Below are positions 8,318 through 32,248 of a stretch of 64,000 nt of DNA, one piece after another. A model generated the notes under the pieces. The model was not told where the DNA came from, ran no database searches, and was given only the letters and a program-made list of their open reading frames with translations. The DNA comes from Crambe crambe (taxonomy: Eukaryota; Porifera; Demospongiae; Poecilosclerida; Crambeidae). Both the position numbers and the translations under genes were made by a program. Within the stretch, counting starts at the first letter, position 1, and each line of letters begins with the position of its first letter. Location of the stretch: the NCBI GenBank assembly GCA_963924555.1, contig OZ004589.1:1364001-1428000 (forward strand), written 5' to 3'.

Positions 8318-8348
<31 letters not shown>

Positions 8349-9647: not shown

Positions 9648-12132
9648 TTATTGTATCTCTTGGTACTGAGGTGTAGTCTCATGAGCCAGACCCATCTCAG
9701 GTGGTAGTGGAACAGGACCCATTGGCTCATAGGTCACTTCAGAGGTCTGAGGATACAAGGTATTGTGAGTCATTTGAAAGTCATTGGATTCGGAAGCTTC
9801 TTCCCTACATGTATATACAGAAAATATCCAGTAACTATGTGTGTCTATAATTATACTCAGTGCTGTAGTATAGGATTGTTAGTGACTAGCTAACCAGCTT
9901 AGCTACTGCTAATAGCAAGCCAGCAAGCAACTTATATTAGCTGCAATGAGTGATAATTGTCAGCCTTCAAATAAAGGACAGGACTACACCATTTAGCTAT
10001 AGAAATTGTCCACTTTGAGATAAAATGAAGTTGTAGTATATATAGCTACTCATCTTTTGTGTATTGTAACTATAGTCATATCAGGGGAATTCTCTAGTGG
10101 TTATATTTACTCATTCCTTACTGCTGGCTGCCATTGGAGTGTTCTTTGCTTCTGAATCGTTTGACACAAACCACAACCAGAACAATGAAGACCACACCCA
10201 CCATGACCATTGCTATTCCCCCCACGACCCCTCCAATTATGGGGGTTAATGCTTGGGTAGGGGGAGGAGGTGCTTGGGTAGGAGGAGATGGAACTGTGGG
10301 GATACTTGTCAGGTTGCAGTCTTCCCCAAAGAAGTTAGGACTGCACTGGACACTGAAACGAGCTTCCAGTCTTCCATTCCCAAAAACACCATTTTCCTGA
10401 AGAGTAGCTGCAGCAGATCCAGGGGAGAAGGGGGACATCTCAAAGTAGATGTGATCTACAATGTCATTTTCATCGATGACTGTCACATCAGAATCATTTA
10501 TACACACATAGAGTTGAAATCCTCCCTAAAGGTCATAATGTAAATGTAATGGAGTGAGAAAGCACCTAGCTACAGTGCATCTACATGTCAATGTCTTGGG
10601 ATGAGAAAGAGTTCATAAGGTCAGTTATCTGAGTGAAATTGATGTCATCATTGTCATCAAAGGTTCCCGTTGTAAACACTCCAAGAGGACAATTGGAGCT
10701 ATCATTGTCTCGTGCAGTGCCAGGTGATCTTAGACAAAAGGTGAAGATGTTATCACAAGGACAACTAGAAGTTATTCCACAAGTTAATGGTTCACAATCA
10801 TCTTGATTAGCACCAGTTCTGTAACAACCTGTGGTCACCAAAGGGAGTAGCCATGGGGGAAGTTAATTAGCTTGGGGGGGGGGGAAATTGAGGGTTTGGG
10901 GGGGAGCTTCCCCCCTGCACCCCCAGTAGATGAAACCCCGATAAGAAAGAAGTGGCCCCAAATTTGGAGTATATCTTACTGTACTATAAGAAGCCATATA
11001 GCTACATATTATTGCATTCTATATTGTCAAGAAACCATTGTGATAGCTACCACTGGCACACTTACAGGCCAAGGATCTTCCCTTGTGTAGGTAAAGGGAT
11101 TGGATAGTGAAGAGTTCATAAGGTCAGTTATTTGAGTAAAATCAATGTCATCATTGTTATCAAAGGTTCCTGTTGTAAACACTCCAAGAGGACAATTGGA
11201 GCTATCATTGTCTTGTGCAGTGCCAGGTGATCTTAGACAAAAGGTGAAGATGTTATCACAAGGACAACTAGAAGTTATTCCACAAGTTAATGGTTCACAA
11301 TCATCTTGATCAGCACCAGCTCTGTTTTCAGCATTGGTATAGCGGTTCAACATCACTTCAAATTCAAAAGTGGTGGATGATGGTTGCAGCTATGATTATA
11401 AAAAGAATGTTATATGGGGAGGAGGGATTGACAATGGCAGTTGAGGTGTGTCATTGGATCTGGTTAGCAAAGCCAGGGCTGGATTCAGGGGTGGGGTTGT
11501 AACCCCCTGTTCCCAAGCTAAAGCAATATTTTGGGGTGCTTCATGCTGTCATATGATGCACACAAAGTGTGCTGTTTATAAAGATTTGGGAAAAGTTTGG
11601 ATTTTTGGACTTCTTGTGCAAAAGATTAGTTATTTGTGACATTACAAAATAAATATCTAAATGCTCAAAAGTGGTAGCCTCCATGCCAGTGAAACCAACA
11701 TGGGTCCTCCAAAATAGCTATGCTCTTTCTTGCAGTGTTGCCAGGTTCATGGATTTATCCACAATCTGTGGATTTTGGATAAGAAAATTGTCTATGGATG
11801 GATAAAGGAATTATTGGGTATTCTTTTCTGTCTGTGGATTTTTTTGGCAACACTGAGTGTGTGTGCTCCTATGGCTAGTCCTGCAACCCCACCTATCTAA
11901 AAATCCTGGATCCAACCCTGAAAGCTAGCCCTTTGATACCAATCCTCATTTGGACTAGCCCTAGCCCTTGCCCTGGTCCTAGCCCTAATCCTTCTTATCT
12001 ATGAGTCTCAGCTTAGCTAGAATAAAACGTTGCTAGCTCTAGACAGCTATAGGTTTTTATCCTCTTTTATTACTAGCTATAGCTTAATACCTGATTAAAA
12101 ACCAGCAAAAGAAGTGGAACAATGATCAGCAT
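9648..12132 (-). CDS. MNNL-A: single-pass membrane protein with MNNL and partial DSL domain
   Basis: Exons read on the - strand: 12091-12132 (signal peptide MLIIVPLLLLVFNQ), 11066-11389 (MNNL part 1), 10122-10525 (MNNL part 2, partial DSL, Pro-rich stalk, TM) and 9648-9804 (tail). They total 927 nt, 308 aa, with closed phases. MNNL features are FEFEVMLNRYTN, CPCDNIFTFCLR, CPLGVFTTG and the WP/GGFQLYV junction, matching the TWPGTFSLII of Delta/Jagged. The DSL part is only ARFSVQCSPNFFGEDC, then a short PPTQAPPPP stalk replaces the rest. The TM is Gly-rich (GGVVGGIAMVMVGVVFIV) with a basic stop-transfer KRFRSK. The tail holds YEPM (YxxM) and a C-terminal YQEI. Uniquely in the array, the DSL and stalk-TM exons are fused (no intron). 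Function is unknown; a Notch-ligand-related or adhesion role is inference. Confidence 0.8.
10610..10820 (-). pseudogene. Relic duplicate of an MNNL exon inside MNNL-A intron
   Basis: It encodes the middle of an MNNL exon (DQDDCEPLTCGITSSCP-like through ITDLMNS) but lacks the FEFEV start, the WP end and both splice sites. It lies between the intact MNNL exon (11066-11389) and the DSL exon of MNNL-A. Its low end runs straight into intron sequence at a GAGAAAGAG microhomology; its high end abuts a truncated DNA element (10821-10940). Confidence 0.75.
10821..10940. mobile_element. Truncated hAT-like MITE, 3' half (CAGGGTTTCATCTA family)
   Basis: It matches the right half of the element at 27168-27436 (TAACAACCTGTGGTCACC through TAGATGAAACCCCG) and ends at the same intron position, before ATAAGAAAGAAG. 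The left half is gone. Sharing the insertion site with MNNL-E shows the element was present before the A and E introns separated. Confidence 0.75.
11474..11920. mobile_element. hAT-like nonautonomous DNA element in MNNL-A intron 1, 5-bp TSD
   Basis: Imperfect terminal inverted repeats (CAGGGCTGGATTCAGG at the left; complement of GGATCCAACCCTG at the right) are flanked by a direct 5-bp duplication AAAGC (11469-11473 and 11921-11925). The matching introns of MNNL-B (near 15415) and MNNL-C (near 19325) carry the empty site GCAAAAGCTAGCCC. It has no ORF of note and contains a nested smaller element (11733-11855). Confidence 0.8.
11733..11855. mobile_element. Nested MITE with CAGTGTTGCCA ends
   Basis: A perfect 11-bp terminal inverted repeat (CAGTGTTGCCA / TGGCAACACTG) encloses 123 bp inside the larger element at 11474-11920. 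Ends of this type are known from hAT-type MITEs. I could not see a clear target-site duplication. Confidence 0.55.
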
Positions 12133-12468
12133 TCTGCAATAATGACATCAAATTTGAGATGGCTCTATAGGTAGCTACACACTCTCTTGCAATGTACCAA
12201 TGCTTATATTTTGTATAAAACACTAATAATAATTTTTTTAAAATTACTGTACATTGGGAAAATATCCACAAAATTGTACACAGATACAGTTTACAAATTT
12301 GTGTCAAACACGTGATTTTTTAAAGGGAAGTCACTTGTTACAAATAATTTATTAATTTTGTACAAAGATATAATTATCATCACCTAATATCCAAAATAAT
12401 TGACAGTCTTCTGGAACACGGAAGAAGGCTGCCTAAATCCGCCCCTGTGACAATACGGTTTACCGTAC

Positions 12469-12697
12469 TTATCTGAGTGCAGTTTCCCCAAAAAAGTTAG
12501 GACTGCACCAGACACTGAAACGAGCTTCCAAAATCCATTCTGAAAATTGCCATGTTGTAATCTAGTTACTTGAGACCGGGGGGGGGAGGGGGGGGGGGGG
12601 GACTCATTAAAGATTAAAGTAGATATAATCCACTACGTATTTTAATTACTTTGGAAGAATCTTGATCTCCAACTCTCATATAAAGCTGGAAACCTCC
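12469..12697 (-). pseudogene. Solitary relic of a second-type DSL exon between MNNL-A and MNNL-B
   Basis: On the - strand it reads GGFQLYMRVGDQDSSKVIKI, which aligns with the second DSL-region exon of MNNL-D (GGFQLYVRVGDRDSSEVIEI). It then runs into stops, a G-run expansion (about 12580-12601) and an altered end. The flanking intron sequence is also shared with MNNL-D (22629-22700). No MNNL or TM exon accompanies it, so it is an orphan of a D-like two-module gene. Confidence 0.75.
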
Positions 12698-13277
12698 CTG
12701 GAAAAGTAGTTCAGCTTTATTTGCTACATATTTAATGTTCATCAAGCTAATATTGCTAAAGAATAAGCTGGAAAAATAAATCTACAAAAATATGGTATAG
12801 CTACCCCCTCCCCCCTCCCCCCCCCCCCCCCCCCCCCCCCCCCCTCAAGACTGGAAAAAATTTAATGGCATTTTTCCATTGTGTTTCTATATAGCTAGCT
12901 AATTGTCTAAAATCAGATAAACAGGATGGCATAGCTAATTATTGAAATCAATGGTGTCATTGAATCCTCAGAGTGGCTGTATAACTAGCTAATAGAGATT
13001 TTTCAGTTGAATCATAACACCATGAATCCTAGGGCTAGGCTATTTATCTGCCACAGTGCTATAATTGCACTGTCAGCCATTCGTTATTGGATTGAATCAA
13101 ACACAGTCATGATAACTTTCCCAATGCATTTAAAAAAACTCATATACTACACACTAGATAGCTAATTATATTCAAAACATTAGGGGAATAAACAAACAAA
13201 CAAATAAATAAACAAACAAACAAAATGATATTGCTATCTACGAAAATCCCTTCATAGCTGCTAATTAGCTTTGTATC
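12698..13277. other. Spacer between relic exon and MNNL-B; duplicated with 25.77-26.2 kb
   Basis: It contains a C homopolymer (about 12794-12844) and sequence colinear with the MNNL-E 3' flank (shared GGTGTCATTGAATCCT, CAAAACATTAGGGGAATAA). It holds a (CAAA)n-like A-rich repeat near 13190-13225. No gene is seen. Confidence 0.6.
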
Positions 13278-15645
13278 TCAAATGTACTCAGGTGTAGTCT
13301 CACGAGCCAGACCCTTCTCAGGTAGTGATGCCATTGGCTCATATATAGAATCGGTCATTTCAGTGGTTTGACCATACAAGCTGTTGTCAGTCATACGATA
13401 GTCATTGGATTTGGAAGCTTCTTTCCTGTACAGAAAATATCCAGTTAGCTACATAGCTAGCTGTAGCCAGTAGCTAGCTAAGCAAAATGTTAGTGACTAG
13501 CTAGCTAGCTTACTGCAAGCCAGCAAGCTAGTTAGCTGCAATTATCAGCTTCCAAATATACCATGCATGGGGACTATAGCTATATATAAATAGCCGTTCT
13601 GTCTCTCTTTAAGTATTTAGTACTCATAGGTGGAGGAAGATGATTTTGAGTATGGGGGCAATAGCTACTGACAAGGTTATCCATAATGTGCAGCCGGAGG
13701 CCACTGTCAGGGGGAGAGTTCGGGAGGGGGATGTGGTGCGAAGCTTTGGGTATTATTGAATACTGGATGCCCATTTCAGACTACAAAAAGCCAAATAACA
13801 ATTTTAGCTAATGACTTCCGTGAAATAAAAAAAAATGTAGGGATGACCATTGCTCAAAAAAGGAAACAAGGGAAATGGGATCAATCTTTGTCCTGCATAT
13901 CCACCAGCCAACAATCACGTCGGGTAGCTTCAGATTATAGTGTATGTATATGTAGGGATTGTTGGCTGGATATACACAACAAAGATTGATCCCATTTCAA
14001 CTCCCTACCCTACTTTTTGAGCAATGGTCATCATTTCACGGAAATGTTTTTTCCCCTTACTTGTTCCTGGTCTTTTTTCTCTCTCTCTTTATGTTATGTA
14101 CACATAATATGTCACACCTGTATTTTGTATGGGGGCAATGCCCCCGTTCCTGCAAAAGAACAGGGGCAAATGCCCCCACTGCCCCCATGGTTCCTCCGCC
14201 TAAGTGACTACTCCATACCATGAAGCTACCCATACCAGGGAAAACCCCTAGCCAGTGGTTAACTAGCTACAGTTATAATAGCTACGACTCTACTCATTTC
14301 TTACTTCTGACTGCCATTGGAGTGTTCTTTGCTTCTGAATCGTTTGACACAAACCACACTCAGAACAATGAGGACCACACCTACCATGACCGCTGCTATT
14401 CCCCCCACGACCCCTCCAACTATGGGGGATAATGCAAGAGGTGCTTGGGTAGGGGTAGTGGAAGTGGAGGTAACCATGGTAGTGGGAGTGGTGATTGGAC
14501 CTAATAGAAAATAGAGCTAATTATGTACAGATAATTTTTTTTTACAGCTTTATGATAGCATGCATACTTGTCGAAATGCAGTCTTCCCCATTGAAGTTAG
14601 GACTGCACTGGACACTGAAACGAGCTACCAGTCTTCCATTCCCAAAAACACCGTTTCTCTGAAGAGTGGCTGCAGAAGACCCAGGGGAGAAGGGGGACAT
14701 CTCAAAGTAGATATGATCTACAATGTCATCTCCATCGAAGTCGGAATCAGTAATCAACACATAGAGTTGAAATCCTCCCTATGATGATCATATAGCTAAT
14801 GTAAATGTAATGGAGTGAGAAAGCATCTAGCTACAGTGCATCTATGCATGTAGCTACATGTCAATGTTGTGGGATGAGAAAGAAGTGGCCTTGAATTTGG
14901 GGATATGTACCCTGTAAGAAGAAGAAGCCTCCAATACATAGACATTTTGGGGGGATTAGAGGAAGTGTGCTGATTGCTCAGGGAACTAGGTATAGCTATC
15001 AATTGTGATGCCACTTACAGGCCAAGGATCTTCCCTTGTGTAAGTAAAGGGATTGGATAGCGAAGAGTTCATAAGGTCAGTTATTCGAGTGAAATTGATG
15101 TCATCATTGTCATCAAAGCTTCCTGTTGTAAACACTCCAAGAGGACAATTGGAACTATCATTGTCTCGTGCAGTGCCAGGTGGTCTTAGACAAAAGGTAA
15201 AGATGTTATCACAAGGACAGCTAGCAGTTATTTTACAAGTTGATGATTCACAATCTTGATCAGCACCAGCTTTGTGTTCAGCATTGGTATAGCGGTTCAA
15301 CATCACTTCAAATTCAAAAGTGGTGGATGATGGTTGCAGCTATGATTATAATAAGAATGTCATATGAGGAGGGATTGGCACCGGCAGTTGAAGCACGCCA
15401 TTGGATCTGGTTAGCAAAAGCTAGCCCTTTGACATCAATCCTCATTTGGACTTGGCCCCTAGCCCTAGTACCTTTCTATGCTATAGTCTCAGCTTAGCTA
15501 GAATAAAAAGTTGCTAGCTCTAGACAGCTATAGGTTTTATCCTCTTTGATTGCTATAGCTTAATAGCTATAGATTTTAGAAGGTATATATAGCTAAATGA
15601 TACCTGATTAAAAATCAGCAAAAGAAGTGGAGCAATGATCAGCAT
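13278..15645 (-). CDS. MNNL-B: single-pass membrane protein with MNNL and partial DSL domain
   Basis: Exons: 15604-15645 (signal peptide MLIIAPLLLLIFNQ), 15019-15339 (MNNL part 1), 14568-14778 (MNNL part 2, partial DSL), 14305-14500 (stalk, TM), 13278-13425 (tail). They total 918 nt, 305 aa, with all phases closing. The MNNL core is CPCDNIFTFCLRPPG and CPLGVFTTGSF; the DSL remnant is FSVQCSPNFNGEDC. The stalk is short (TPTTMVTSTSTTPTQAP). The TM is Gly-rich, then KRFRSKEH. The tail has IYEPM, conserved PEKGLARETTP and ends EYI. Signal, MNNL, DSL and stalk-TM each fill their own exon, so modules can be exchanged. Intron 4 holds a palindromic MITE (13813-14064). Its 3' flank resembles that of MNNL-E. 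Confidence 0.82.
13813..14064. mobile_element. Diverged palindromic MITE in MNNL-B intron 4
   Basis: Inverted arms (ATGTAGGGATGACCATTGCT at the left; GTTGGCTGGATATACACAAC, AGCAATGGTCAT and CCCTTACTTGT at the right) match the cleaner copy at 61452-61764. The arms differ by several substitutions and the left tip is lost, so this is an older insertion than the right-flank copies. Confidence 0.75.
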
Positions 15646-15733
15646 TCTGCAATAATGGCATCAAATTCGTATCATCAGCATTATCTTATACATTCCTGGT
15701 ACATACATTCCTGGAACCATTCCTGGTACATAT

Positions 15734-16003
15734 CAGGGTTTCATCTAAGGAGGGGGGCGCAGGGGAAGCTTCCCCTCCAAACAGCTCAACTTCCCCCCCC
15801 CCCCCCCCCCCCCCCCCAAGATATTGCCAAAAGAAAGAAAAAATACTTCTAAGTAGCTAGTATATTTTTAGGATCCAAGCATTTTAAAAATACTTCTAAG
15901 TATTATTTTTAGAATTTAAGCATTTTTGGCTTCATGCTCTGGCCTTATGGCCACACGTTCCATGAGCTTCCCCTCCAAGGTGAAATTCCTAGATGAAACC
16001 CTG
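15734..16003. mobile_element. hAT-like MITE, CAGGGTTTCATCTA family, 5-bp TSD
   Basis: Perfect 14-bp terminal inverted repeats (CAGGGTTTCATCTA / TAGATGAAACCCTG) are flanked by the duplication CATAT on both sides. The interior is G/C-run rich (C homopolymer about 15786-15818) and shares GGGGAAGCTTCCCC and AAGGTGAAATTCCTAGATG with the other copies. It sits just upstream of the MNNL-B signal-peptide exon, where MNNL-A and C have a conserved upstream block. Confidence 0.85.
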
Positions 16004-17439
16004 CATATATACATTCCATTCTATTCCTGATACATAGCTACATTCCTGGTTTCTGTCGACACAATGTTGACTGTTTCTTTTAGTTATAGGTAGTCATAGG
16101 AAGTGAAAGACTTTTCACTTGACATATATGTCAACATATTCTTTTAGCTATAGCTAGTCATAGGAAGTGAAAGACGGTTCACTTGACATACTTGCTGTTC
16201 AATCTGTCCTCCATCATTTGAAGCATACACTTCGAATTGCACTCATGAACTACTGAAACTGGCATCAAGATTGCTGTTGATGGAATGCACTTGAATATGT
16301 CACTCAATAGTAGAATGGGACAGTCCTTGTTTAACCAATTCTGAAATTTCTAACCTATCTGCACATCAATGATAATTCCCAGAGTGAAGTAGTTCATTTT
16401 CCATAATACACAATAATGCTGGTGTCTCCAATACGCCTTTGCTTCAATTTGCTGATCCTAACATAATTGGCACTCTATTTCAGCCGTAAGCTTTTCAAGG
16501 CAGGAGTTTTGAGAAAAGTAATATGCTCAAGCACAGTCATGGTTCATTGATCATTTAACATGTTAACTATAATTGATAATAAATGTTTGTGTGTCTAGTC
16601 TATATCATGGGAGTGAAATAGGAATAGTCAGCTTTAACTTTGGTAGTAATAATTATTATTGGTGTGGTTCTTGAATTTGGTAATGGGTATGGGTAAGGGA
16701 CTCTCTTGTTGCTGAACTTTTTTGAATCTTAATGGCAAAGACTTAGCTCAGCATGCAGCACTAGCTATGGGCCAGGATGAGATATAAAGGGTGTGAAGTA
16801 GGAATAATTAACTTATAGTTTTGGTAATATTGGTATGGTTCTTGATGTGATGAGTAGGGGTTACTTAATGGGTACGGGTGCCCCACCCCCTCTTAATAAC
16901 CCATGCAGAATGTGAAATTACCTGGCAAGACAACTTTTTCCTACTCTAAAATTAGAAGCACGGGCATTGCTAGTTGCTTGCACCCTTAATTTTCATTGTT
17001 GAACGAACATGACTACGAAAATAAATTAATATCCAATTTACAGTAGTCTGAATCCTATGCAGGTGATGGCATTAAAAATTTTAGTGGAGCCATGCAGAAA
17101 ATCAATTTACAAGTCATTAACTTCAATGATAGTTATTACGCATTAGTAAAGAGTTCATGTTACGTCATGTGCATGATTTAGCTGTAGCCCTGATGTCAGT
17201 GACGTCTTTCTTCTTCAGCAACATCTTCCTTCTTCAGCAACTCCTGGTATTTAGGGGGATCCTGTGCTGGAACAGGAGGGGGTATGGTCTCGTATATGAC
17301 ATTGATGGTGTCATCATAATTATGGATCTTCTATCCTATGTTCATATTATATATAGCTAGTTAGCTAGCTATCAACTTATAGGCTATGGCTAGATCGTTC
17401 CCTGCAGGACAAGAAACCCTCTCTAACGATTGTACTAAC
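16004..17439. other. Segmentally duplicated spacer (copy 1) 3' of MNNL-C
   Basis: 16,190-17,330 is colinear with 20,050-21,240. On the - strand a stretch around 16195-16360 could encode KDCPILLLSDIFKCIPSTA and a VSVVHECNSKC-like continuation, also present in copy 2; no start, stop context or family could be assigned. 17,180-17,340 is the decayed counterpart of the terminal tail exon of MNNL-D: it still reads VIYETIPPPVPAQDPPK and YQEL in one frame but has a 4-bp insertion that makes a stop (GAT CCA TAA) and no clear acceptor. Confidence 0.6.
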
Positions 17440-19545
17440 TTACAGAGCATCATTATTGGCTATAATCTGGACTTCATTTGATCCGTTCTGGTACCTGCAT
17501 CATTAGAACCTTTCATTGGTTTTGCCAATAGTAGTTAGCTAGCTAGCTACTTACAAAATGGCATTCTTGGCTGTTATCTGGACTTTATTTGATCCACTCT
17601 GATAGGATGCTTCACTATTATAACAATAGGGATTATAAGAGCTATTCTTTAGCTATTAGCTTAATGAACATTAACAAATAAATTCTTTAGCTAATAGCTA
17701 AAGAATTATAATTACTGTAAAATAAGAGAGAATGATATCATCGTTATGTAGGCCAATACATTCAGCTGATAACAACACCATGCAGGCTGATACATTTGGC
17801 ACTTCAATACACCGACGTTACTATTTTTGTGCATTCATTCTGGTGCTCGACATTTAGTTTCTTATTATAGCTACCTGGTTTGATTGTATTCCTTGCTTTT
17901 GGATCGCTTGGTACAGACCACAATAAAAACAATGAAGATCACACCCACCATGATCACAACTATTCCCCCCACGACCCCTCCAATTATGGTGGTTAATGCA
18001 AGAGGCGATGGAGGTGTGGCTTGGCTGCCAACTCCTGTGGTGTCAGCAAGCATAGTGGAAGTGGAAGTAACCATGGTAGTGGGAGTGGTAACCGTGGGAG
18101 TGGTAACTGTGGGAGTGGTAACTGTTGGATTGGAAGTGGAGGTAACCATAATAGTGGGAGTGGTAACTGTGGGAGTGGGAGTGGAGGTAACCATAGTAAT
18201 TGGAGTGGAAGTGGAGGTAACCATAGTAGTGGGAGTGGTAACCATGGTAGTGGAAGTGGAGGTAACCATGGTAGTAATCAGAGTGGTTGGGGGACCTAAA
18301 TGGAAAATAAAGTTTACAAGTAGCTACATAGCTAGCTACTAGCAATGCTGAACTTGGTTTTTCATATCTTAGTTTTGGATCTTAGCCACGAGTGTTAGCT
18401 AGTTTAGGTACTATAGTTAGTGTGCACATGCTATATCAGCTAGCACAGCATTACATATGAGTCAAGAGAGCCACTGATATATTACTTGTTTGAGTGCAGT
18501 CTTCCCCAAAGAAGTTAGGACTGCACTGGACACTGAAACGAGCTTCCAGTACTCCATTCCCAAAAATACCGTTTCCCTGAAGAGTGGCTGCAGAAGACCC
18601 AGGGGAGAAGGGGGACATCTCAAAGTAGATGTGATCTACAATGTCATCTCCATCGATGTCAGAATCAGTAATCAACACATAGAGTTGAAATCCTCCCTAA
18701 AGATCATGTAATGGAGTGAGAAAGCACCTAGCTACATGTCAATGTCATGGGATGAGAAAGAAGTGGCCATGAATTTGGGGTATAGCTATTATAATATATG
18801 TGCCCTGGAAGAAGCCTCCAATACATGGAGATTTTGGGGGGATTAGAGGAAGTGTGGCTGATTGCTCAGGGAACTAGGTATAGCTATCAATTGTGATACC
18901 ACAAAATTTTACTTACAGGCCAAGGATCTTCCCTCGTGTAGGTAAGGGGATTGGATAGCGGAGAGTTCATAAGGTCAGTTATTCGAGTGAAATTGATATC
19001 ATCATTGTCATCAAAGCTTCCTGTTGTAAACACTCCAAGAGGACAATTGGAACTATCATTGTCTCGTGCAGTGCCAGGTGGTCTTAGACAGAAGGTAAAG
19101 ATGTTATCGCAAGGACAGCTAGAAGTTAATCCACAAGTTAATGGTTCACAATCATCTCGATCAGCACCAGCTTTGTGTTCAGCATTGGTATAGCGGTTCA
19201 ACATCACTTCAAATTCAAAAGTGGTGGATGATGGTTGCAGCTACATAATTATGATTATAATAAGAATGTCAGATGAGGAGGGATTGGCAACGGCAGTTGA
19301 GGCACGCCATTGGATCTGGTTAGCAAAAGCTAGCCCTTTGACATCAATCCTCATTTGGACTTGGCCCCTAGCCCTAGTACCTTTCTATGTTATAGTCTCA
19401 GCTTAGATAAAAAGCTCTAGACAGCTATATAGATATAGCTTTTTATCTTTTGATTGCTATAACTTAATAGCTATGGATTTTAGAAGGTATAGCTAAATAA
19501 TACCTGATTAAAAATCAGCAAAAGAAGTGGAGCAATGATCAGCAT
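17440..19545 (-). CDS. MNNL-C: long-stalked MNNL membrane protein with shortened tail
   Basis: Exons: 19504-19545 (signal peptide identical to B), 18917-19240 (MNNL part 1), 18486-18696 (MNNL part 2, partial DSL, ends DCTQT), 17875-18295 (stalk, TM), 17555-17614 and 17444-17494 (tail). If the last donor is not used, a TAA follows at 17440-17442, giving 1113 nt, 370 aa. The stalk is about 90 residues of TMVTSTST/TPTVTTPT repeats, by far longer than in A, B or E. The TM is GGVVGGIVVIMVGVIFIV, then CTKRSKSKEYN. The two small tail exons encode near-duplicate SYQSGSNKVQI / YQNGSNEVQI blocks. The terminal exon with paired tyrosines, present in D and F, is broken here. The 5' half is A/B-like and the 3' half D-like, so the gene is a mosaic. 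Confidence 0.72.
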
Positions 19546-21096
19546 TCTGCAATAATGGCATCAAATTTGAGAGATGGCCATATGCTAGTTACATTAGCTA
19601 TACACTCTCTTGCAATGCACCAATGCAATATATTATGTATCGAGTACTAATTATGATGCCCTTAATACAAACTTGTGTGACACGTGATATACGGGAAGTC
19701 ACTTGTTGCAAATAATTTATTTGTACAAATCAATATTATCTTGGACATTCATGGCGCATACATTCCTGGTACATACATTCCTGGTAGCTACATTCCTGGT
19801 TTCTGTCAACATAAAATTAATGTTTGTAGTGTTTAGTGATTTATAATGTAGCTATCACAGTGGTTATACTGTATCTAATTAATGTATCACTCTTGTTATT
19901 TCCTTGTATCATTAATATGTTATGATATAATAGATAGACAGGTGATTGTGATAGACCTCATGATTATGTATGTAGAAATTGGAAAAGAAATTTAAGTATC
20001 TAGTATCATCCATAGAGTTGGAATACTACAATGTTGACAGTTCCTTTTATAGTCATACTGTTCACTTGACATACTTGCTGTTCAATCTGTCCTCTTTTTC
20101 TCATCATTTGAAGCATACACTTCGAATTGCACTCATGAACTACTGAAACTGGCATCAAGATTACTGTTGATGGAATGCACTTGAATATGTCACTCAATAG
20201 TAGAATGGGACAGTCCTCGTTCAACCAACTCTGAAATTTCTAACCTATCTGCACACCAATGATAATTCCCAGAGTGAGGTAGGTCATTTATTGATGTCTC
20301 CATATACACAATAATGCTGATCTCTCCAATATAATTTGCTGATCCTAATAAGATTTAATAAATGATCAATGACTGTACTTGTGCACATGTTACTTTCTCA
20401 AAACTCCTGCTTTGAAAAGCTTATGGCTAAATGGAGTGCCAATTAATTCACCTTTGATGTGTAATAAAAGCGTGTCTAGTCTATATCATGGGAGTGAAGT
20501 AGGAATAGTCAGCTTGTAGTTTGGTAATAATATTATTGATGTAGTTCTTGAGTTTGGTAATGGGTATGTATGGGTAAGGGGTTACTTGACTCTCTTGCTG
20601 CTGAACTTTTTTGAACTGTACACATTAGCCATCCCTACGTACTTGCCATTATTAATTGATGCAAAAGATTATAAAGCCTTAATTAGCTCAGTACAAGCAA
20701 TAAAGGGAGTGAAGTAGGTCTGGAATAATCAGCTTGTAGTTTTGGTAATATTGGTGTGATTCTTGAGTTTGGTAATGGGTACGGGTAAGGGGTTACTTGA
20801 TGGGTATGGGTGCCCCACCTCCTCTTAATAACCCATGCAGAATGTGTAGATTAATCTTCTTGGAAAATAAGACTCTAAAAGCACGGACGTTGCTAGTTGC
20901 TTGCACCCTTAATTTTCATTGTTGAACGAAAATACTAATTTACAGTAGTCTGAATCCTATGCAGGTGATGGCTTGAAATGCATTAAAAAATTTTTTTTTT
21001 AGTGGAGCCATGCAAAAAATCAATTTATAGAGTCATTAACTTCAATGATAGTTATTATGCATTAGTAAAGAGTTCATGTTACGTCATGTGCATGAT
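19546..21096. other. Segmentally duplicated spacer (copy 2) between MNNL-C and MNNL-D
   Basis: 19,600-19,730 is the conserved upstream region of MNNL-C (CACGTG at 19681-19686). 20,050-21,130 repeats 16,190-17,160 with one internal block inverted (20360-20445 versus 16465-16557). The - strand ORF 20006-20224 (PVSVVHECNSKC core) corresponds to the same potential segment in copy 1; its product is unrecognised and it may be a relic. No other gene is seen. Confidence 0.6.
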
Positions 21097-24000
21097 TTAG
21101 CTGTATTCATTAGTAGCCCTGACGTCAATGACGTCTTCCTTCTTCAGTAACTCCTGATGTTTAGGAGGATCCTGTGCTGGAACAGGAGAGGGTATGGTCT
21201 CGTACACGGCATTGATGGTGTCATCATATGGATCTTCTATCCTATGTTTGTTGATAACATTCTGATATGCAGTTAATTGTCTTTAGAAATACTTCTTCTT
21301 TTGATGTTGAGGTGTTAATCGGTTTAGCTATTTAAAGCTTATTAAATTTGAATTCCAACTTTGATCAATTTGGTTTAGCTACTGGAATCTTTGTCTTGCC
21401 TTGGGGGTTAGGTATCAACTTAGGCTATAATTATTGTTCCCTGCAGGACAAGAAACCTGATTGTACTAACTTACAGAGCATCATTATTGGCTATAATCTG
21501 GACTTCATTTGATCCGTTCTGGTACCTGCATTGTTAGTAAGAGAGAACCTTTCATTGGTTTTGCCAATAGCAGCTAGCTAGCTACTTACAGAATGGCATT
21601 CTTGGCTGCCATCTGGACTTTGTTTGATCCACTCTGATGGGACGCTTCTTCCCTATAATAACAATAACTAATTTCTCAGCAAAGTGGGTCTCAAAAAGTT
21701 TTGATATGCAAGAGAATGATATACCACCATGCAGGCAGGCTGATACATTCAGCACTCTTGAATACACCCATTCTGGTGCTTGACATTTAGTTTCTTATGT
21801 ACCTGCTTTGTTCTTTGTTATTGTATTCCTTGCTTTTGGATCGCTTGGTACAGACCACAATGAAAATGATGAGGACCACACCCACCATGATCACAACTAT
21901 TCCCCCCACAATCCCTCCAATTATGGGGGCTGATTCAAGAGGTGCTGGAGGTGCAGCTTGGCTGCCAACTCCTGTGGTGTGAGCAAGCGTAGTGGAAGTG
22001 GAAGTAACCATAGCAGTGGGAGTGGTAACTGTTGGATTGGAAGTGGAGGTACCCATAATAGTGGGAGTGGTGACTGTAGCCATAGTAGTGGGAGTGGTAA
22101 CTGTTGGATTGGAAGTGGAGGTACCCATAATAGTGGGAGTGGTGACTGTAGTAGCTGGAGTGGTAACCGTGGAAGTGGTAACCATTGGGTCCGGACCTAA
22201 ATAGAAAATAAAGTTTACAAGTGCATGGCTAGCTACTAGCAATGCTGAACTTGGCTTCAGAAAAAAAAATGTCCAGGTGTGGGTTGGTGTAGCTAACTAG
22301 TTAGCTTTAGCCACGAGTGTTAGTTTTAGGTACTATAGTCAGTGTGCACATGCTGTATTAGCTAGCACAGCATTACAAATGAGTCAAGAGAACCACTGAT
22401 ATATTACAATACCGTACTTGTCTGAGTGCAGTCTTCCTCAGAGAAGTTAGGACTGCAACGGATACTGAAACGAGCTTCCAGTACTCCATTCTGAAAATTG
22501 CCACGTTGTAATCTAGTTACTTGAGACCCGGGGGGGAAGGGGGACTCATTAAAGTAGATGTGATCCACTATTTCAATTACTTCGGAAGAATCTCGATCCC
22601 CAACTCTCACATAAAGCTGGAAACCTCCCTGGAAAAGTAGTTCAGCTTTATTTGCTACATATTTAATGTTCATCAAGCTAATAGCCAAAGAATAAGCTGG
22701 TGTCATACAAAAATGACAGCTTTTTTTTTAGTGCAGCTGCATGCAGAGAACTAACTTACAGGCCAGCGGTTACTACTGGTGATGGTGTATGTATTATCAG
22801 TTATGCGACCAAAATCAATGTTATCATTATTATCAAAGCTTCTAGTCGTAGACATTCCAAGAGGACAATTGCTTAGATCGTCATCATCTATATCATTGCC
22901 AGGTGGTCTTAGACAGAAGGTGAAGATGTTGTCACAAGGACAGGCTAGAAGAAGCACACATGATATTGGCTCACATCTGTCTTGAGCTCTACCCGCTCTG
23001 CTACCTTCGTTTCTATAATGGACCAGCCTCACTTCAAATTCGAAGGTAGGAGTAGCAGAAGTGGAGGTAACCATGGTAGTGGGAGTGGAGGTGGAGGTAT
23101 CCGTGGTAGTGGGAGTGGGAATGGAGGTGGGGGTAATGGGAGTGGAAGTAGAGGTAACCATGGTAGTGGGAGTGGAAGTAGAGGTAACCATGGTAGTGGG
23201 AGTAGAGGTAACCATGGTAGTGGGAGTGGAAGTAGAGGTGACCATGGTAGTGGGAGTGGTAATTGGACCTAACAGAATATGGAGTTCGTATTATGTCAAC
23301 AGAACCCAATGTCCACCTGGAACCTTGTATTAGAGAGTGAAAGGGCTCATTTCTAGCCGAACGGTATTTAGTCTGGTGTATACTTATACTATAGCTAATG
23401 TGATTTTTTTTTGACAGCTCTATGATAGCAGAGATACAGCCACCATACTTGTCAGGTTGCAGTCTTCCCCAAAGAAGTTAGGACTGCACTGGACACTGAA
23501 CTGAGCTTCCAGCCTTCCATTTCCAAAAATGCCAGTTTGTGTCACAGTCACTGCAGGGGACCCAGGGGAGAGGGACATCTCAAAGTAGATGTGATCAACA
23601 ATGTCATCAACGATGGTGTCAGAATCAGTAATCAACACATAGAGTTGAAATCCTCCCTATAAAGATCATAATAATAAGTAATAGCATGAGGTAATAATTA
23701 TGCTGGCATAATGTCAGTGGTATCACTTGATAATATATAACATACTCTTGGATCACCACGCTTCTTCTGATCACCCCCAAATGTCTATTATGGCTTCTTC
23801 TTCTTGTATACATGCAGTAGCTAGCTACAGTAATAATTATAGCTAGGGCCACTTCTTTCTCATCCATATGTACATAATTTATATGTACTGTAGTAATGCT
23901 TTCTCAGACTACTCTATAGGCATGGGGCAAATATGCTCTTTTTTGGCCTATTATTCTATTCTGCAGTGCTCCTCCAGCAGACCCATTATTCTTTTGTCTC

Positions 24001-24807
24001 AACAAAATGTCCTGAAAGAGTACATTATATATTATTTTGAACTGTGTGTGGCATTTTCCCCTAAAGGATGTCAAAAAATTTTTCTCTCTCAGAATGCAAC
24101 ACTAGTACTCAAGGGAGTGAGCTATAACAATTACTGAAGCCTATTATTCTGTTTATTTAGCCTATTATGCTGCTATTCCAGTGAGGCCCTATTATTCCCA
24201 TTATATTATCAGCTGCTTACAGGCCAAGGATTTCCCCTTGTGTAGGTAAAGGGATTCGATAGTGGAGAGTTCATTAGGTCAGTTATTCGAGTGAAATCAA
24301 TGTTATCATTGTTATCAAAGGTTCCTGTTGTAAACACTCCAAGAGGACAATTGGAGCTATCATTGTCTCGTGCAGTGCCAGGTGGTCTTAGACAAAAGGT
24401 AAAGATGTTGTCGCAAGGACAACTTAATCTACAAGTAAATGGTTCACAATTTTGATTAGCACCAGCTCTGTGTTCAGCATTGGTATAGCGGTTCAACATC
24501 ACTTCAAATTCAAAAGTGGTGGATGATGGTTGCAGCTATGATTAAAACAGAAAGAATATCATGATAGATATAATTATAGCTAGCTTTTTATTATAGCTTA
24601 GCCTAATATGTAATATGCTTAGTAAGAGGGACTACTAGGGCTAGGGCTAGGGCTAGGGGTCAAGTCAAAACAAGGATTGCTTTTGCTAACCATATGGTGC
24701 ACCTCTTCCTCTTTGCTAATATCTACGTATTAAGCAGGACAGCAAAATAGTAGCTAAAGTCATACCTGAGTGAAGATCAACAGAAGAAATGAAATACAAA
24801 TAAGCAT
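21097..24807 (-). CDS. MNNL-D: two-module MNNL-DSL membrane protein
   Basis: Exons: 24766-24807 (signal peptide MLICISFLLLIFTQ), 24221-24535 (MNNL1 part 1), 23449-23656 (MNNL1 part 2, DSL1), 22760-23268 (stalk 1 fused to MNNL2 part 1), 22418-22628 (MNNL2 part 2, DSL2), 21803-22196 (stalk 2, TM), 21590-21652, 21475-21525 and 21097-21280 (tail). They total 1977 nt, 658 aa; every phase closes and all donors/acceptors are GT/AG. Module 2 is diverged (FEFEVRLVHYRNEG, CPCDNIFTFCLRPPGND, FSIRCSPNFSEEDC). Stalk 1 (about residues 189-262) repeats TSTSTPTTMV; stalk 2 repeats TTPTIMGTSTSNPTV. The TM is followed by CTKRSKSKEY. The tail has VYETI, then DPPKHQEL, where F has a tyrosine. The fused stalk-MNNL2 exon shows how two genes or modules were joined. 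Confidence 0.82.
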
Positions 24808-26203
24808 CGCCTTCTTTTTTCTCTTTCTTCTTCCGGCTTATACAACTCTTGAACTGAGAGGACACAATCTGCTGTTTGAAGTTCCTGCTTCTCCTTTTTG
24901 TACTCATGGATGGATGGTCCTCCGATGGCCTCCTTCCCCATGCACACTGCATTTGCTAGTTATCCACATATGTAGATTAGACTAACTATACAGTACTGCA
25001 CATATGATAATTAATGTATTCTAATTATAATAATTAATTATCATGGTATGGCAATGATACCACAGCAATTTCATAAAGAGTGTTTACGAATAAGATGACA
25101 TCAAGTTTTGCAGTCAAGTCTAATAGAAATGGCTCCATTTGAATCCTCTAAGTGTAAATTGCTGAGATATCCAGCCACTTTCAGTTTAATGCAACCTCAA
25201 AAAATACTGTCATGTCAGCCATTACTATAACTTTAATTGAGACTAGCACAACAAAATTTAACTACTTTTGAAGTCCATATCTAGCTATAATAACATGCAC
25301 ATTACATATAACATGCCATGTAGATAATAACATGTACATGTTATATGCACATGTATGTAGCTATAGTCATACATGTTACATGTAGCTATAAAATACACAG
25401 CTAAGTACATGATCATAACAGTTATGTTGCTAAGTTCTTGTATTGTCAACTTGCTTGCCCAACTAGCTATCTATGTACATCATTTAGGGCTGGTACAATA
25501 TGGGCAGGCAATTAAGACGAGTTGTCTATGCATCATACCAGAATAATGGATCAAATAAAGTCCAGATAGCTAACTGCACATGATGTATCATGTGACTCAA
25601 AATGGGAAGATCTGTAGGACACCACAGCTATAGTCTGTGGTTAGTTAAAAGTACTTTATTCCAGTGAGAGCTGGATGGGATTGCAGAGTAGCTAAAGAGC
25701 ACACCATTGGAAAGCTCTCACAGAGAGTTTCTTTTGGGACCAAAATGTAGGAGGTATGGACAGAAATGAAATCTAAAAAAATATGGTAGCTATCCCCCCT
25801 CAAGACTGGAAAATTTTAAATGCCATTCCATATGGTGTTTCTATAGCTAGCTAATCACATAAACAGGATGATATAGCTAATTATGAGATTTTTTGAAACC
25901 AATGGTGTCATTGAATCCTTAGAGTGGCTGTATAATAGAGATTTTTCAGTTTGAATCTTAACACCATGAATCCTATGGCTAGGCTATCTGCCACAGTGCT
26001 ATAATAGTTGCACTGTCAGCCATTTGTTATTGCATTGAATCAAGCACTTGATAACCTTCTCAATGCATTAAAAAATCTCATAGCTACATTAATTATATTC
26101 AAAACATTAGGGGAATAAACAAATAAACAAACAAATAAATGAACAAACAAGCAAAATGATATTGCTATCTATGCAAATTCACATCTTCATATATAGCTGC
26201 TAA
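24808..26203. other. Spacer between MNNL-D and MNNL-E
   Basis: The first ~150 bases upstream of the MNNL-D signal exon resemble those upstream of MNNL-E (shared TTTTTGTACTCAT, GATGGATGGTCC). 25,020-25,500 is AT-rich without genes. 25,530-25,605 is an inverted tail-exon relic. 25,770-26,200 duplicates 12.76-13.28 kb. Confidence 0.6.
25530..25605 (+). pseudogene. Inverted relic of a type-2 tail exon
   Basis: The + strand reads CATCATACCAGAATAATGG, TCAAATAAAGTCCAGATAGC, then ACTGCACATGATGTATCATG and TGTGACTC. This follows the coding strand of the MNNL-F tail exon (SYQNGSNKVQIA, then TAHDVSY and HVTHN) with a deletion in between. All intact array genes are on the - strand, so this fragment is inverted. 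Confidence 0.75.
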
Positions 26204-28267
26204 TTAGCTGTACTCAGGTGTAGTCTCACGAGCCAGACCCTTCTCAGGTAGTGGTGCCATTGGCTCATATGTAGAATAGGTCACTTCAATGGTCTGACCA
26301 TACAAGCTATTGTCAGTCATACGATAGTCATTGTATTCGGAAGCTTCTTTCCTGCACAGAAATATCCAGTAGCTAGCTAAGCAAAATGTTAGTGAATAGC
26401 CAGCTAGCAGAGCTTACTGCAAGCCAGCAAGCTAGTTAGCTGCAATTATCAGCTACCATACATTTCTTACTTCTGACTGCCATTGGAGTGTTCTTTGCTT
26501 CTGAATCGTTTGACACAAACAACACCCAGAACAATGAGGACCACACCTATCATGACCGCTGCTATTCCCCCCACGACCCCTCCAATTATGGGGGCTAATG
26601 CAAGAGGTGCTTGGGTAGGGGTAGTGGAAGTGGAGGTAACCATGGTAGTGGGAGTGGTGATTGGACCTAATAGAAAATAGAGTTGGGCTCGTCTCTTGCT
26701 ATACTGCATGGCTTCTAACCCAACAATATTAGTCTACAAGGTAGTTTATGCTAATATGTACAGTAACTAATGATAATTTTTGACAGCTTTATGATAGCAT
26801 GCATACTTGTCGAAATACAGTCTTCCCCAAAGAAGTTAGGACTGCACTGGACACTGAAACGAGCTTCCAGTCTTCCATTCCCAAAAACACCATTTTCCTG
26901 AAGAGTAGCTGCAGAAGACCCAGGGGAGAAGGGGGACATCTCAAAGTAGATGTGATCTACAATATCATCAGAATCGATGTCGGAATCAGTAATCAACACA
27001 TAGAGTTGAAATCCTCCCTATAACAATCGTAAATGTAATGGAATTGTCTTCATGAGTGAGAAAATACAGTCATGCATACTTCTAGCTACAGTGCATGATA
27101 TATATATATAGCTATATATATTATAGCTAATTGTCTATGTACATATGTATCAATGTTATAGGATGAGCAGGGTTTCATCTAGGAATTTCACCTTGGGGGG
27201 AAGCTCACCGATCGTGTGGCCATAGGCCACAGTGAGGGGGAGGGTGCGGGAGGGGGATGTGCCCCCTCCCATGCGAAGCGTGACGCCAAACTCCAATTAC
27301 TCGACCCTTTGGTGACTACATGTAACAACCTGTGGTCACCAAAGGGAGTAGCCATGGGGGAAGTTAATTATTTGGGGGGGATTGAGGGTTTGGGGGGAAG
27401 CTTCCCCCCTTGCACCCCCCAGTAGATGAAACCCCGATGAGAAAGAAGTGGCCCTGAATTTGGAGTATATCTATAATTACTGTACTGCAAGAAGCCATGT
27501 AGCTACATTATTGCATTCTATTATTGTCAAGAAACCATTGTGATAGCTACCACTGGCACACTTACAGGCCAAGGATTTTCCCCTGTGTAGGTAAAGGGAT
27601 TGGATAGCGAAGAGTTCATAAGGTCAGTTATTTGAGTGAAATCAATGTCATCATTGTCATCAAAGCTTCCCGTTGTAAACACTCCAAGAAGACAATTGGA
27701 GCTATCATTGTCTCGTGCAGTGCCAGGTGGTCTTAGACAAAAGGTAAAGATGTTATCGCAAGGACAGCTAGAAGTTAGTCCACAAGTTAATGGTTCACAA
27801 TCATCTTGATTAGCACCAGCTCTGTGTTCAGCATTGGTATAGCGGTTCAACATCACTTCAAATTCAAAAGTGGTGGATGATGGTTGCAGCTATAATTAAA
27901 GAATGTCATGCTAATAACTAAGAGCTAGCAACTTTGTATCATATAGCTTAGCCTATGATAATATGCTTAGACTAGGTATAGATAAAGAGGGAATAGGGCT
28001 AGGGCTAGGGCTAGGGTTGACTAGGGCTAGAGTTTATTAGGGCTAGGACTTTAGGGGTTAAGTCAAAATGAGGATTGACATCATCAAAAGGTTTTGCTAT
28101 TAAACCAAATCCAATGGCGCGCCTCAACTGCTTTTGCCAATAGGGCCCACCTCACCTAGCTAGTAGCTAGCTATGCGTTTGAGGTAAGTAGGACAGCAAA
28201 AATGTGTTAGTGGCTAAAGTCATACCTGAGTGAGGATCAGCAGAAGAAATGAAATACAAATAAACAT
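26204..28267 (-). CDS. MNNL-E: single-pass membrane protein with MNNL and partial DSL domain
   Basis: Exons: 28226-28267 (signal peptide MFICISFLLLILTQ), 27566-27889 (MNNL part 1), 26807-27017 (MNNL part 2, partial DSL), 26471-26666 (stalk, TM), 26204-26351 (tail). They total 921 nt, 306 aa, with closed phases. The MNNL core is as in A-C (CPCDNIFTFCLRPPG). The DSL remnant is FSVQCSPNFFGEDC. The short stalk TPTTMVTSTSTTPTQAP and TM are almost identical to MNNL-B. The tail has VTYSTYEPM and ends TTPEYS. The signal peptide and upstream region are D-like while the 3' half is B-like, so this gene is a recombinant of the two sublineages. A MITE (27168-27436) sits in the intron after MNNL part 1. 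Confidence 0.83.
27168..27436. mobile_element. hAT-like MITE, CAGGGTTTCATCTA family, 5-bp TSD
   Basis: Ends CAGGGTTTCATCTA / TAGATGAAACCCCG (one mismatch) are flanked by ATGAG on both sides. It is about 269 bp and G/C-run rich. It lies at the same intron position as the truncated copy in MNNL-A. Other family member: 15734-16003. Confidence 0.85.
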
Positions 28268-29157
28268 TGTCTTCCTTTTCTCTGTCCTTCTTCTAAATCT
28301 TGAGGTTGAGAGGAATACAATCTGCTGTCTGTTCCCTTTTTGTACTCATTGATGGATGGTCCTTCAATGGCCTCCTTGTCCATGCATTTGCTAGCTATCC
28401 ACATTATGTAGATTATGCACAGCAGCTATACTTAATAGAATTATGTGAACTCACTTACAGCTCATATGGTATGGCAATGATACCATAGCAATTTGTTTAC
28501 GAATAAGACGGCATGAATATTGTAAAAGAAATATGCAAAAACAACCCATTTTTATGTTATCTGAGTTCTAATTTGTAACTCAGATGTCCTAAAAATGGCA
28601 TACATTTAATTTTATTTTTACAGTGAAGTTTTGCAGTCAAAGTCTTAGCTATGAAAATGGCTCCGTTTGTGGCTATTAAATTGCTGAGATATCTAGCTAG
28701 CTAATGGGAATGCTATTTCTTGGTGGTGTCTGCTGCTATTTCCAGCTATGAGAAGCATTCTGCTTGTTTTTGTAATGGTTGAGGGTGTTGAAGTGGAATG
28801 AAGTGAGGCTTGACTAAATTCCACCTGCTAATCAGCTGAGTGTGTGCCCTTCAAAAATCGGATAAATCATATATAATTGGAAGTGTAAGTATGGGGTAGC
28901 CACTTTTGGTTTTACCGATGCAACCACAAAAAAATACATCTATTGGAACTCCATTACTATATTAGAGAGTGCTACCCACTCTCTGATAATTATTTCCAAT
29001 TATTTCCAAATAAGTTAACCATGAAAGTTTAACCACAGTAAATATTTACAAACATAGCCATAAATAATCGTAGCTGGAATGATAATGTGTATGCATTTAG
29101 TCATAGATCCTGCTAGCTAAAACCACAGTTTATGAATTCAGAACTGCATTTCTTTGG
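28268..29157. other. Spacer between MNNL-E and MNNL-F, no gene seen
   Basis: It contains the D/E-type upstream block, then AT-rich unique sequence. TAGAGAGTGCTACCCACTCTCT near 28964-28985 is a short hairpin related to the AGAGTGCGGTAGCACTCTCT at about 60322-60341. Confidence 0.55.
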
Positions 29158-31888
29158 TTAGTTGTAGTCATTAGTGGTCCTGACAAAATGCTTGTCCACG
29201 ACTTCATTATATTTAGGTGGCTCCTGTGCTTGGGTGGAAGGGGTTATAGTCTCGTACATGACGTTAGCTGTGGTGTCATACGGATCTTCCATCCTATGAC
29301 CATTATGAGTCACATGATAGTCATATGATACATCATGTGCAGTCATCCCCTTTCCATAGAGGGCATCATTCTTTGCTATCTGGACTTTATTTGATCCATT
29401 CTGGTATGATGCTTCTTCCCTGTATTGTTAGTAAGAATAGACAAGTCTAGCCATTGCCTGCCCTCACACACCGTATACCAGGGGTACGTAGTATGAAGGA
29501 ATTGCAATCCCCTTCCCTTTTGATGACACAGTAACAAGCAGAATTCAAGTGTTCAAGCGATGGGACCATTGAGCATGCTTAGCTATTGTAACCAAGTCTT
29601 ATGTTCTATTTAGGGGGGATTCAAGCTAGGGGTTCAAACTAGCTACCTTTGAATAGAAACATCGTCACTCAATTAGAACAGTCATGGTCTGTGCTCTGAT
29701 TCACCCACAAATTAGTTAACTATGAATATGCAAGGTTATTCAGTCACAGTGCTTTGTAGGTAGATGCTGCAACTTTTCAGAAGAGACATTAAAGTAGCAG
29801 GCATCACTAGCTTTAGAAACTGAGAGCTAGCAGCCATGAGATATGCTTTTGAATATGGTCACTGTATCGATCATCATGGCTAACCAGAAGTTTTCAAAGG
29901 TCTAAAATAATTTTTTTCTGTTATTGAAAGTGGTAGGGTGCATCACCCACCATTTACTATGAACTACGGGCCTGTTAATTATTAGCCTACTGGCTAGCTT
30001 AGCCAACAACAAAGTAGTGAGTTTCTTCCTGCCATAATATACATACTAGCAACCAGGATATAGCTATGCCAAGGCTGATAACTGACTTTTGTACCATGGC
30101 CACTGGCATACTTAAAACAGCAGTTCTATAATAATTGGTCCAGTCATGCATTTATCAACCTCTCTAGGAGATTGATAAGTGATTCATCAAGATTCAAAGG
30201 TCCTCAAAATGCTATTGGTAGCCATCCATGAATTTTATTTCTTACCTCTGCTGCCCACTGTTATAGTAATGCTCCTTTCTTTTGGATCGCAAGGCACAGA
30301 CCACAATGAAAATGATGAGGACCACACCCACTATGATCAATGCTATTCCCCCCACTGCCCCTCCAATTATAGGAGCTAATGCAATGGGTGCTGGAGATGT
30401 CGAGCCACCTTGCCCAACTCCTTGGCCGCTATTTGGATTTTCATTAGTGGCCTCATTGTTGGAAGAACCAGCCATGGTAGTATCAGTGACTATTGCAGGA
30501 GTGGAAGTGGAGGCAACCATGGTAGTGGGAGTGGAGGTGGAGGTATCCATGGTAGTGGGAGTGGAAGTGGAAGTAACCATGGTAATGGGAGTGGTAATTG
30601 GACCTAAATAGTAAATGGAGTTTGTATTAACCTAATGTCAACCTGGATCCTTGTTGAAGTATTGCTTTCAGTGGGACACAGAAAAGGCGTCTCTAAAATA
30701 ATAGTTATAGATTTGAGCAATAGAGTAAAAGGGCTTGTCTTGCTATACTGGCTTCTAGCCAAATGGTACTTTGTCTACAATGTAGTGTATGATGCTTTAG
30801 CTATGGACTGAGATACTTGTCAAAAGGCAGTTTCCCCCAAAGAAGTTAGGACTGCACTGGACACTGAAACGAGCCTCCAGTCTTCCATTCCCAAAAATGC
30901 CAGTTTGTGTCACAGTTACTGCAGGAGACCCAGGGGAGAGGGACATCTCAAAGTAGATGTGATCCACCATGTCATCAGAATTGGCAGGATCCCGATCAGA
31001 AATGAACACATAGAACTGGAAACCCCCCTGAAAAAATAAAAATAAAAAATAAATACAGATATAATAGAAATGACACTGTGAGGATTGATCCATAAAGTGT
31101 TATATACTTTAAGGCAATGATGACTATCACTCATGTCAACAGAAGACAGACAGGGGCCGGGGGGAGTATCCTTCTATGTCTTACACAGAGTCAAAGCCAA
31201 CAATCATTCAGTGATGTCATAACTATGAGGATTCTATTAAGGAATGATTAAGGTGTTTGTTTAGAGGACACATTCTTCATATGTATGAAGGAAAAAACCA
31301 CCCGTGACACGAGTGCACTATCATTGAGCCATAGCTTAGCTACTACCATAAACACAGCTAGCTACAGCTGTACAATAATCATTTTCATGCACACACTGTC
31401 ACATGAACATATTCCTCCCAGTCACCTATGATAGCTATACATCATAAATAAATGTTATACTCACAGGCCAACCACTATCCTTGCTGTAGACCAGTGGGTT
31501 AGAAACTGAGTTCATCAGATGAGTCATTCTAGAGAAGTCTATATTATCATTTTCATCGTAAAGTCCACTCTGAAATGCCCCAAGGGGACAGAAGGTTGGA
31601 TCATTATTTCGAGCAGTGCCAGGTGGTCTCAGGCAGAAGGTGAAGATATTGTCGCAATTACAGGTGGATGATGTTATTGCTGAACAAGGTAATAATTCAC
31701 AGTTGGCTCTGTCACTGCCTTCTTTGTGTTCAGGATTAGTGTAGTGGTTCAGCATCACCTCAAATTCAAAAGTAGCAGCTGAAGACCACACCTGTTATAC
31801 AAGCATGTACATAAAAGATCTGCCTAGCTTAAGTTAGAGTTGCAGCTACCTGATTTATGAGCAGTAGGAGTGGAATTATCCCTGACAT
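29158..31888 (-). CDS. MNNL-F: MNNL membrane protein with ITAM-like / PPxY tail
   Basis: Exons: 31850-31888 (signal peptide MSGIIPLLLLINQ), 31465-31791 (MNNL part 1), 30817-31027 (MNNL part 2, partial DSL), 30246-30603 (stalk, TM), 29158-29419 (tail). They total 1197 nt, 398 aa, with closed phases. This is the most diverged array member: MNNL core CNCDNIFTFCLRPPG and CPLGAFQSG; DSL remnant FSVQCSPNFFGGNC. The stalk holds TSTSTPTTMV repeats, then a Gln/Asn/Gly segment. The TM is GGAVGGIALIIVGVVLIIF, then ALRSKRKEHY. The 87-residue single-exon tail has many tyrosines; near its end YETI and YNEV are 11 residues apart, and the second overlaps a PPKY (PPxY). D and C tails look like split or decayed forms of this exon, so F may be closest to the ancestral type-2 tail. 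Confidence 0.83.
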
Positions 31889-32248
31889 TTTGTTGTACTG
31901 TACTTCTAGTAACTTAAAATACGACCCAACCTTTTTTTATTAAAATCCAACTGAGGCACTACGCATGCGCATGTGGGGTCAAAGGTGAAAGGAACGTATG
32001 CGTGGGAAAACTGGCGCATGCGCAAACAGTGGATACCAGGCTCCCCGCCCCCCAAGAAAAGGAAAAGAGAGGCTGGGTTCGAGGCTAGCTAAGGGGTCGC
32101 TCGCCAATAAGTCATGACCCGAGAGTGAGGCTCCGCTCGCTCGCTGTAATAATATCTACATCAATGAGTCAAGACCTGAGAGTCAGCTCGTTCGCTCCGC
32201 TGTCTCCAATTCTGTGTACGTAGTCTAGTTAAGTATATCTGTGCACTG
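31889..32248. promoter_or_regulatory. Divergent promoter region with two NRF1-type palindromes
   Basis: Between MNNL-F (-) and the + strand gene at 32249, CGCATGCGCATG starts at 31962 and GCGCATGCGC lies at 32014-32023, within 75-135 bases of the MNNL-F start codon. The region is richer in CpG than its surroundings (about 31960-32220), with two near-repeats of AGTCA[A/T]GACC[C/T]GAGAGT at about 32110-32185. A bidirectional promoter is inferred from geometry. Confidence 0.45.

Follow-up and report, generated by a model that had tools for sequence, protein, structure and literature searches.

The window, that is, the whole stretch of 64,000 nucleotides of Crambe crambe DNA that was analysed, carries on its minus strand, at 9648-31888, an array of six genes whose products display the MNNL domain of Notch ligands, but retain only the first two cysteines of a DSL domain and have no EGF repeats. 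With about even confidence, the array is read as encoding cell-surface recognition receptors from a lineage-expanded MNNL family.

Gene models and the truncated DSL domain

All six genes can be spliced through gt/ag junctions and fill exactly the coordinates above, which confirms the count and strand given in the preliminary description. The encoded parts follow one order: a putative hydrophobic leader, an MNNL domain from two exons, a two-cysteine DSL stub, a Thr/Pro-rich stalk, a putative transmembrane (TM) segment and a tail (53-101 residues in the six proteins). The leader, a hydrophobic N-terminus, and the TM segment, one long hydrophobic stretch, were recognised by eye. The "identical exon logic" ascribed to the array holds for most genes, but G3 has two MNNL domains, G4 is frameshifted in its tail, and G6, as modelled, lacks the intron between stub and TM. 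The features are as follows.

29158..31888, minus strand: G1, 398 residues; one MNNL, DSL stub, stalk, TM and tail with YQNG, VMYETI and PPKY; exons 31888-31850, 31791-31465, 31027-30817, 30603-30246, 29419-29158
26204..28267, minus strand: G2, 306 residues; YEPM in tail; exons 28267-28226, 27889-27566, 27017-26807, 26666-26471, 26351-26204
21097..24807, minus strand: G3, 645 residues; two MNNL domains in a single reading frame; exons 24807-24766, 24535-24221, 23656-23449, 23268-22760, 22628-22418, 22196-21803, 21652-21590, 21525-21475, 21241-21097
17196..19545, minus strand: G4, 374 residues as read; last exon frameshifted, stop after LIEDP; exons 19545-19504, 19240-18917, 18696-18486, 18295-17875, 17614-17555, 17494-17444, 17335-17196
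13278..15645, minus strand: G5, 305 residues; YEPM in tail; exons 15645-15604, 15339-15019, 14778-14568, 14500-14305, 13425-13278
9648..12132, minus strand: G6, 308 residues; no intron from stub to TM; YEPM and YQEI in tail; exons 12132-12091, 11389-11066, 10525-10122, 9804-9648
10581..10862, minus strand: orphan duplicate of the first MNNL exon, truncated and lying within an intron of G6
about 12490..12700, minus strand: decayed duplicate of the second MNNL exon, interrupted by in-frame stops, between G5 and G6
10313..30868, minus strand: seven DSL stubs of the type FSVQCSPNFFGEDC or a close variant, with 5' ends at 30868, 26858, 23500, 22469, 18537, 14619 and 10357

The reading frame is intact to the end in five of the six genes. 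Self-comparison revealed duplicated stretches of at least 250 bases at about 69-94% identity, and the orphan first-half exon together with the decayed second-half exon show turnover in the array.

Beside the array lie a RING-H2 finger protein (8310-9251, plus strand), a Core-2/I-branching enzyme (1500-2885, minus strand), and an open frame (32180-32599, plus strand) whose product has a TM stretch and, in its tail, YEVM and VYMEV, and which has no Pfam match at 0.01. Farther along, 35007-60222 on the minus strand holds repeated long open frames of up to 1153 residues, some broken, for related proteins with GGAIY-type repeats and a hydrophobic C-terminal part that probably spans the membrane several times; one frame (37680-41141, minus strand) matches Pfam Chlam_PMP at E 2.7e-5. 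Two open frames at 41776-47448 on the minus strand have a common domain, GHxWIxSSNGSAVRVYCDMTRSCGNITGGWM, without a Pfam match at 0.001.

The MNNL homology asserted in the preliminary description was borne out by Pfam (PF07657, curated cut-off 22.5 bits), which matched all seven spliced domains at E up to 1, the best at 1.6e-8. Four proteins scored past the cut-off, namely G1 (25.1), G2 (29.0), G3 (55.0, in two stretches, E 8.7e-15) and G6 (30.9). As a positive control, three Deltas from the same genome gave MNNL in 3/3 and DSL in 3/3. Against the PDB, the sole match of a single array domain at E up to 1 was the solved fly Delta 7alk (E 1.4e-4); a profile of the array found 7alk at E 4.6e-6, its other match being an adhesion GPCR at E 0.64. 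Furthermore, comparison of the array profile with that of the three local Deltas gave E 2.6e-32, and the gt/ag intron that splits the domain between WP and G sits at the same place in all three of them. A six-frame genome search with PF07657 returned nine matches, none inside the window, because each exon there carries half a domain. The MNNL domain of human Notch ligands has a C2 fold; the array domains would be expected to share it, and the two cysteines of the stub are predicted to pair.

In contrast to Delta and Jagged ligands, with which they share MNNL, the first two DSL cysteines and one hydrophobic TM stretch, the window proteins have no complete six-cysteine DSL domain and no EGF repeats. 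With E up to 1 allowed, Pfam DSL had no match among the seven spliced ectodomains, and a genome-wide DSL search at E 0.001 gave 22 matches, 11 each on C13 and C15 and none on the contig of the array. When three DSL domains of the same genome, together with two EGF segments, were used as tblastn queries against window positions 7001-33000, these DSL domains aligned at the stubs over the first two cysteines only. The matches in the array were the seven stubs (E 7e-4 to 0.9), the decayed copy and the MNNL cysteines; the few others had E 0.13 or weaker, some of them containing stops. No convincing DSL or EGF exon was found in the introns of the array, either by this search or by cysteine patterns on both strands of the whole window, where the single EGF-like match was the orphan MNNL exon and the single DSL-like match, at 47960, lies beyond the array. 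Among the Pfam matches of G1, G2, G3 and G6 there is neither an EGF family nor a kinase domain, and one of the seven domains matched EGF_PEAR1L weakly (E 0.061). The truncation of DSL and the absence of EGF, both proposed at the outset, thus stand. With MNNL present, DSL truncated and EGF lacking, the proteins are therefore not canonical Notch activators, as had also been suggested.

Relatives in the genome and the tyrosine-kinase receptors

At E 0.01 or better, one window ectodomain has at least 62 matches in the genome, all figures being lower bounds: 22 on C5, 16 within the window itself, 12 in a sister array on C12, 9 on C13, 2 on C1 and 1 on C19. The sister array, on the plus strand about 0.3 Mb from the window, has the same part order; since it has six MNNL domains and four tail exons, three of these domains apparently belong to a single gene. 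Another group, whose stub is short, is found on C15, with a Ser/Thr stalk and TM following in L004 and L005. Deltas with a full DSL lie on C13, together with a gene that combines an MNNL-like domain, recognised by its match to that window ectodomain and without a Pfam MNNL match, with EGF repeats and a TM segment. LNR repeats of Notch gave two matches each on C16 and C17. A possible DSL-repeat gene lies at C15:6462611-6465414, where two open frames (286 and 273 residues) contain ten DSL matches.

The C5 matches form a cluster of about 180 kb (3000318-3178749), and within the 25 kb of it that were read (L060, L061 and L064), tyrosine kinases are preceded by ectodomains of MNNL, stub and EGF. 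For one gene a model of ten exons with gt/ag junctions was built; counted from its first MNNL exon, with the leader excluded, it encodes 960 residues plus stop in the order MNNL, stub, EGF, MNNL, stub, TM and tyrosine kinase (Pfam kinase E 1.4e-90). This kinase matches 45 PDB sequences at E 1e-60 or below: 43 named as Eph receptors, one Src-Abl ancestor, and the EGF receptor, which scores best. In unspliced motif scans, kinase motifs also come after such ectodomains in three other, incompletely covered C5 genes: one in L060 has a TM segment, a glycine loop, HRDLAARN and KWTAPE; another in L060 has a TM segment and a glycine loop up to the point where the sequence read stops; and one in L064 has MNNL, stubs, EGF and TM, with just KWTALE of a kinase.

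Pfam MNNL matched one of five C5 domains (1.9e-5), and the whole C5 gene gave no MNNL match at 0.01. The putative MNNL identity of the C5 domains rests mainly on profile comparison (E 1e-20 with the Deltas, E 1.3e-16 with the window domains) and on the genome matches of a window ectodomain (E 9e-6 to 8e-3). A tree of 26 domain rows joins window, sister array and C1 in one group (100/99) and places the C5 kinase-receptor domains in a separate one (100/99); with several long branches, it gives no branching order for the Deltas relative to the stub proteins and the kinase receptors. The C5 cluster is perhaps more striking than the window array itself. A search of the open literature, whose coverage leaves out key sponge and premetazoan kinome papers, found neither an MNNL tyrosine kinase nor a DSL-less MNNL array.

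Selection, variable loops and candidate functions

The window ectodomains are under purifying selection. For the six window and six sister domains (the second domain of G3 and all other relatives left out), the median dN/dS is 0.37 for the 15 window pairs, 0.54 for the 15 pairs of the sister array and 0.35 for the 36 pairs that span both arrays, with no overall diversifying selection. Variable columns gather in two loops, one separating the first strand from CDNIF, the other acidic and placed before DIVDH: 24/35 in the loops versus 53/146 outside for the window, and 30/35 versus 38/146 for the sister array. The loop boundaries were set post hoc from these two alignments; only the five C5 domains, with 22/32 in the homologous loops versus 44/142 outside, provide a partial replicate. 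By sequence position relative to Jagged1, the two are presumably C2 loops 1-2 and 5-6. In a study on human Notch ligands, those C2 loops vary between ligands and form a putative lipid-binding site, and in Jagged proteins they bind calcium (PMC5538765).

Phosphorylated tyrosine motifs dock SH2 proteins, PPxY binds WW-domain ubiquitin ligases, and the ITIM has a known role as a tail motif. YEx[IVM] occurs in five of the six window tails, YxN in G1, G3 and G4, and PPxY in G1; of the four sister tails, each read to its end, all have YQNG and PPPDY and three have YETV. These motifs are short: counted over three representative tails, general SH2-type motifs barely outnumber shuffles (7 versus 3.5, P 0.04), and YxN, YxxM, Yxx[ILV] and ITIM taken individually show no excess. 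In the same tails an excess over shuffles is seen for YEx[IVM] (P 0.001) and for PPxY (P 0.002), both motifs having been picked after the tails were viewed. An ITIM-type receptor label was set aside, the strict [SIVL]xYxx[ILV] being found in one of six window tails (G1) and showing no excess over shuffles in the three representative tails.

Based on these features, a mechanism can be proposed in which one MNNL domain, or two in G3, would be displayed on the Thr/Pro-rich stalk and closed by the two-cysteine stub. The apical loops, which vary from one paralogue to the next, could recognise a lipid, a glycan or a protein that a neighbouring cell or a surface presents. This contact would be relayed inward through the single TM helix to the short tail, whose tyrosine motifs, once phosphorylated, could dock SH2 proteins, while PPxY in some members may recruit WW-domain ubiquitin ligases. 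The ligand, the phosphorylation of the tail and the direction of signalling are all conjectured from the sequence. Arguing against this mechanism are the lack of a kinase domain in the window proteins, as seen in G1, G2, G3 and G6, and dN/dS values that give no overall sign of diversifying selection. The preliminary description had left modulator, adhesion and recognition roles side by side; receptor or recognition use is now favoured among them because variation is focused in the loops, a sister array exists and C5 has tyrosine-kinase receptors with MNNL, though Notch modulation is compatible too.

A rather unlikely alternative is that the proteins serve passive adhesion or self/non-self recognition, with a mucin-like stalk, variable apical loops and no inward signal. 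The tandem paralogues, with exon copies and decayed exons as signs of turnover, the repetitive Thr/Pro stalks, the varying number of MNNL domains and the focus of variation in the loops would all suit such a role, but the tail exons of the sister array have been kept at four loci and purifying selection prevails overall.

It is unlikely, too, that the array encodes Notch modulators, in which MNNL would still touch an EGF repeat of Notch through its C2 contact, could not activate without DSL, and would act by rivalry with Deltas or by inhibition of Notch in cis. The genome does contain Notch LNR repeats and full-DSL Deltas, and in human ligands a C2 loop is one of two Notch contacts (PMC5538765). 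However, the CDNIF-NCPLG stretch, which by position corresponds to that contact, lacks extra conservation (13/27 versus 62/119 variable columns), and special conservation of it was rejected. Modulation alone would also poorly explain two expanded arrays and kinase-linked relatives. Decaying duplicates of a Delta gene, for which the frameshifted tail of G4 and the orphan and decayed exons could speak, are very improbable, given five intact frames out of six and dN/dS of 0.37 within and 0.35 between arrays.

Precedents and implications for the MNNL module

The nearest precedents are AmqDelta4 without EGF, odd cnidarian DSL genes and a Capsaspora DSL tyrosine kinase. AmqDelta4 of Amphimedon queenslandica shares MNNL, TM and the lack of EGF with the window proteins, but retains the DSL domain that they are without (PMC3482393). 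Cnidarian DSL-only genes, and one gene with MNLL and three DSL domains, likewise use Notch-ligand domains beyond the Delta architecture; they keep DSL, whereas the window genes have lost exactly this domain (PMC2770060). The Delta-like receptor tyrosine kinase of Capsaspora, as cited in PMC4810162, resembles the C5 cluster in bearing a Notch-ligand-type domain on a kinase; it has two DSL domains and EGF repeats where the C5 receptors have MNNL, a DSL stub and EGF, and its kinase sets it apart from the window genes.

MNNL is taken to be diagnostic of Notch ligands, and MNNL plus DSL is counted as "strong" evidence for Delta in PMC6040629. Because a single genome carries MNNL both on stalked proteins without a kinase and on tyrosine kinases, this domain by itself is insufficient to call a Notch ligand. 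Since related domains sit on tyrosine-kinase receptors in the same genome, MNNL seems to be a recognition head of general use and not one confined to Notch. More tentatively, and as a possibility of fairly low probability, MNNL with its stub may in this lineage be a free-standing receptor head, used on both kinase-less stalked and tyrosine-kinase receptors, of which Delta would be one branch within a wider and possibly older receptor or recognition family. The role of the module before or beside Delta thus becomes a testable question.
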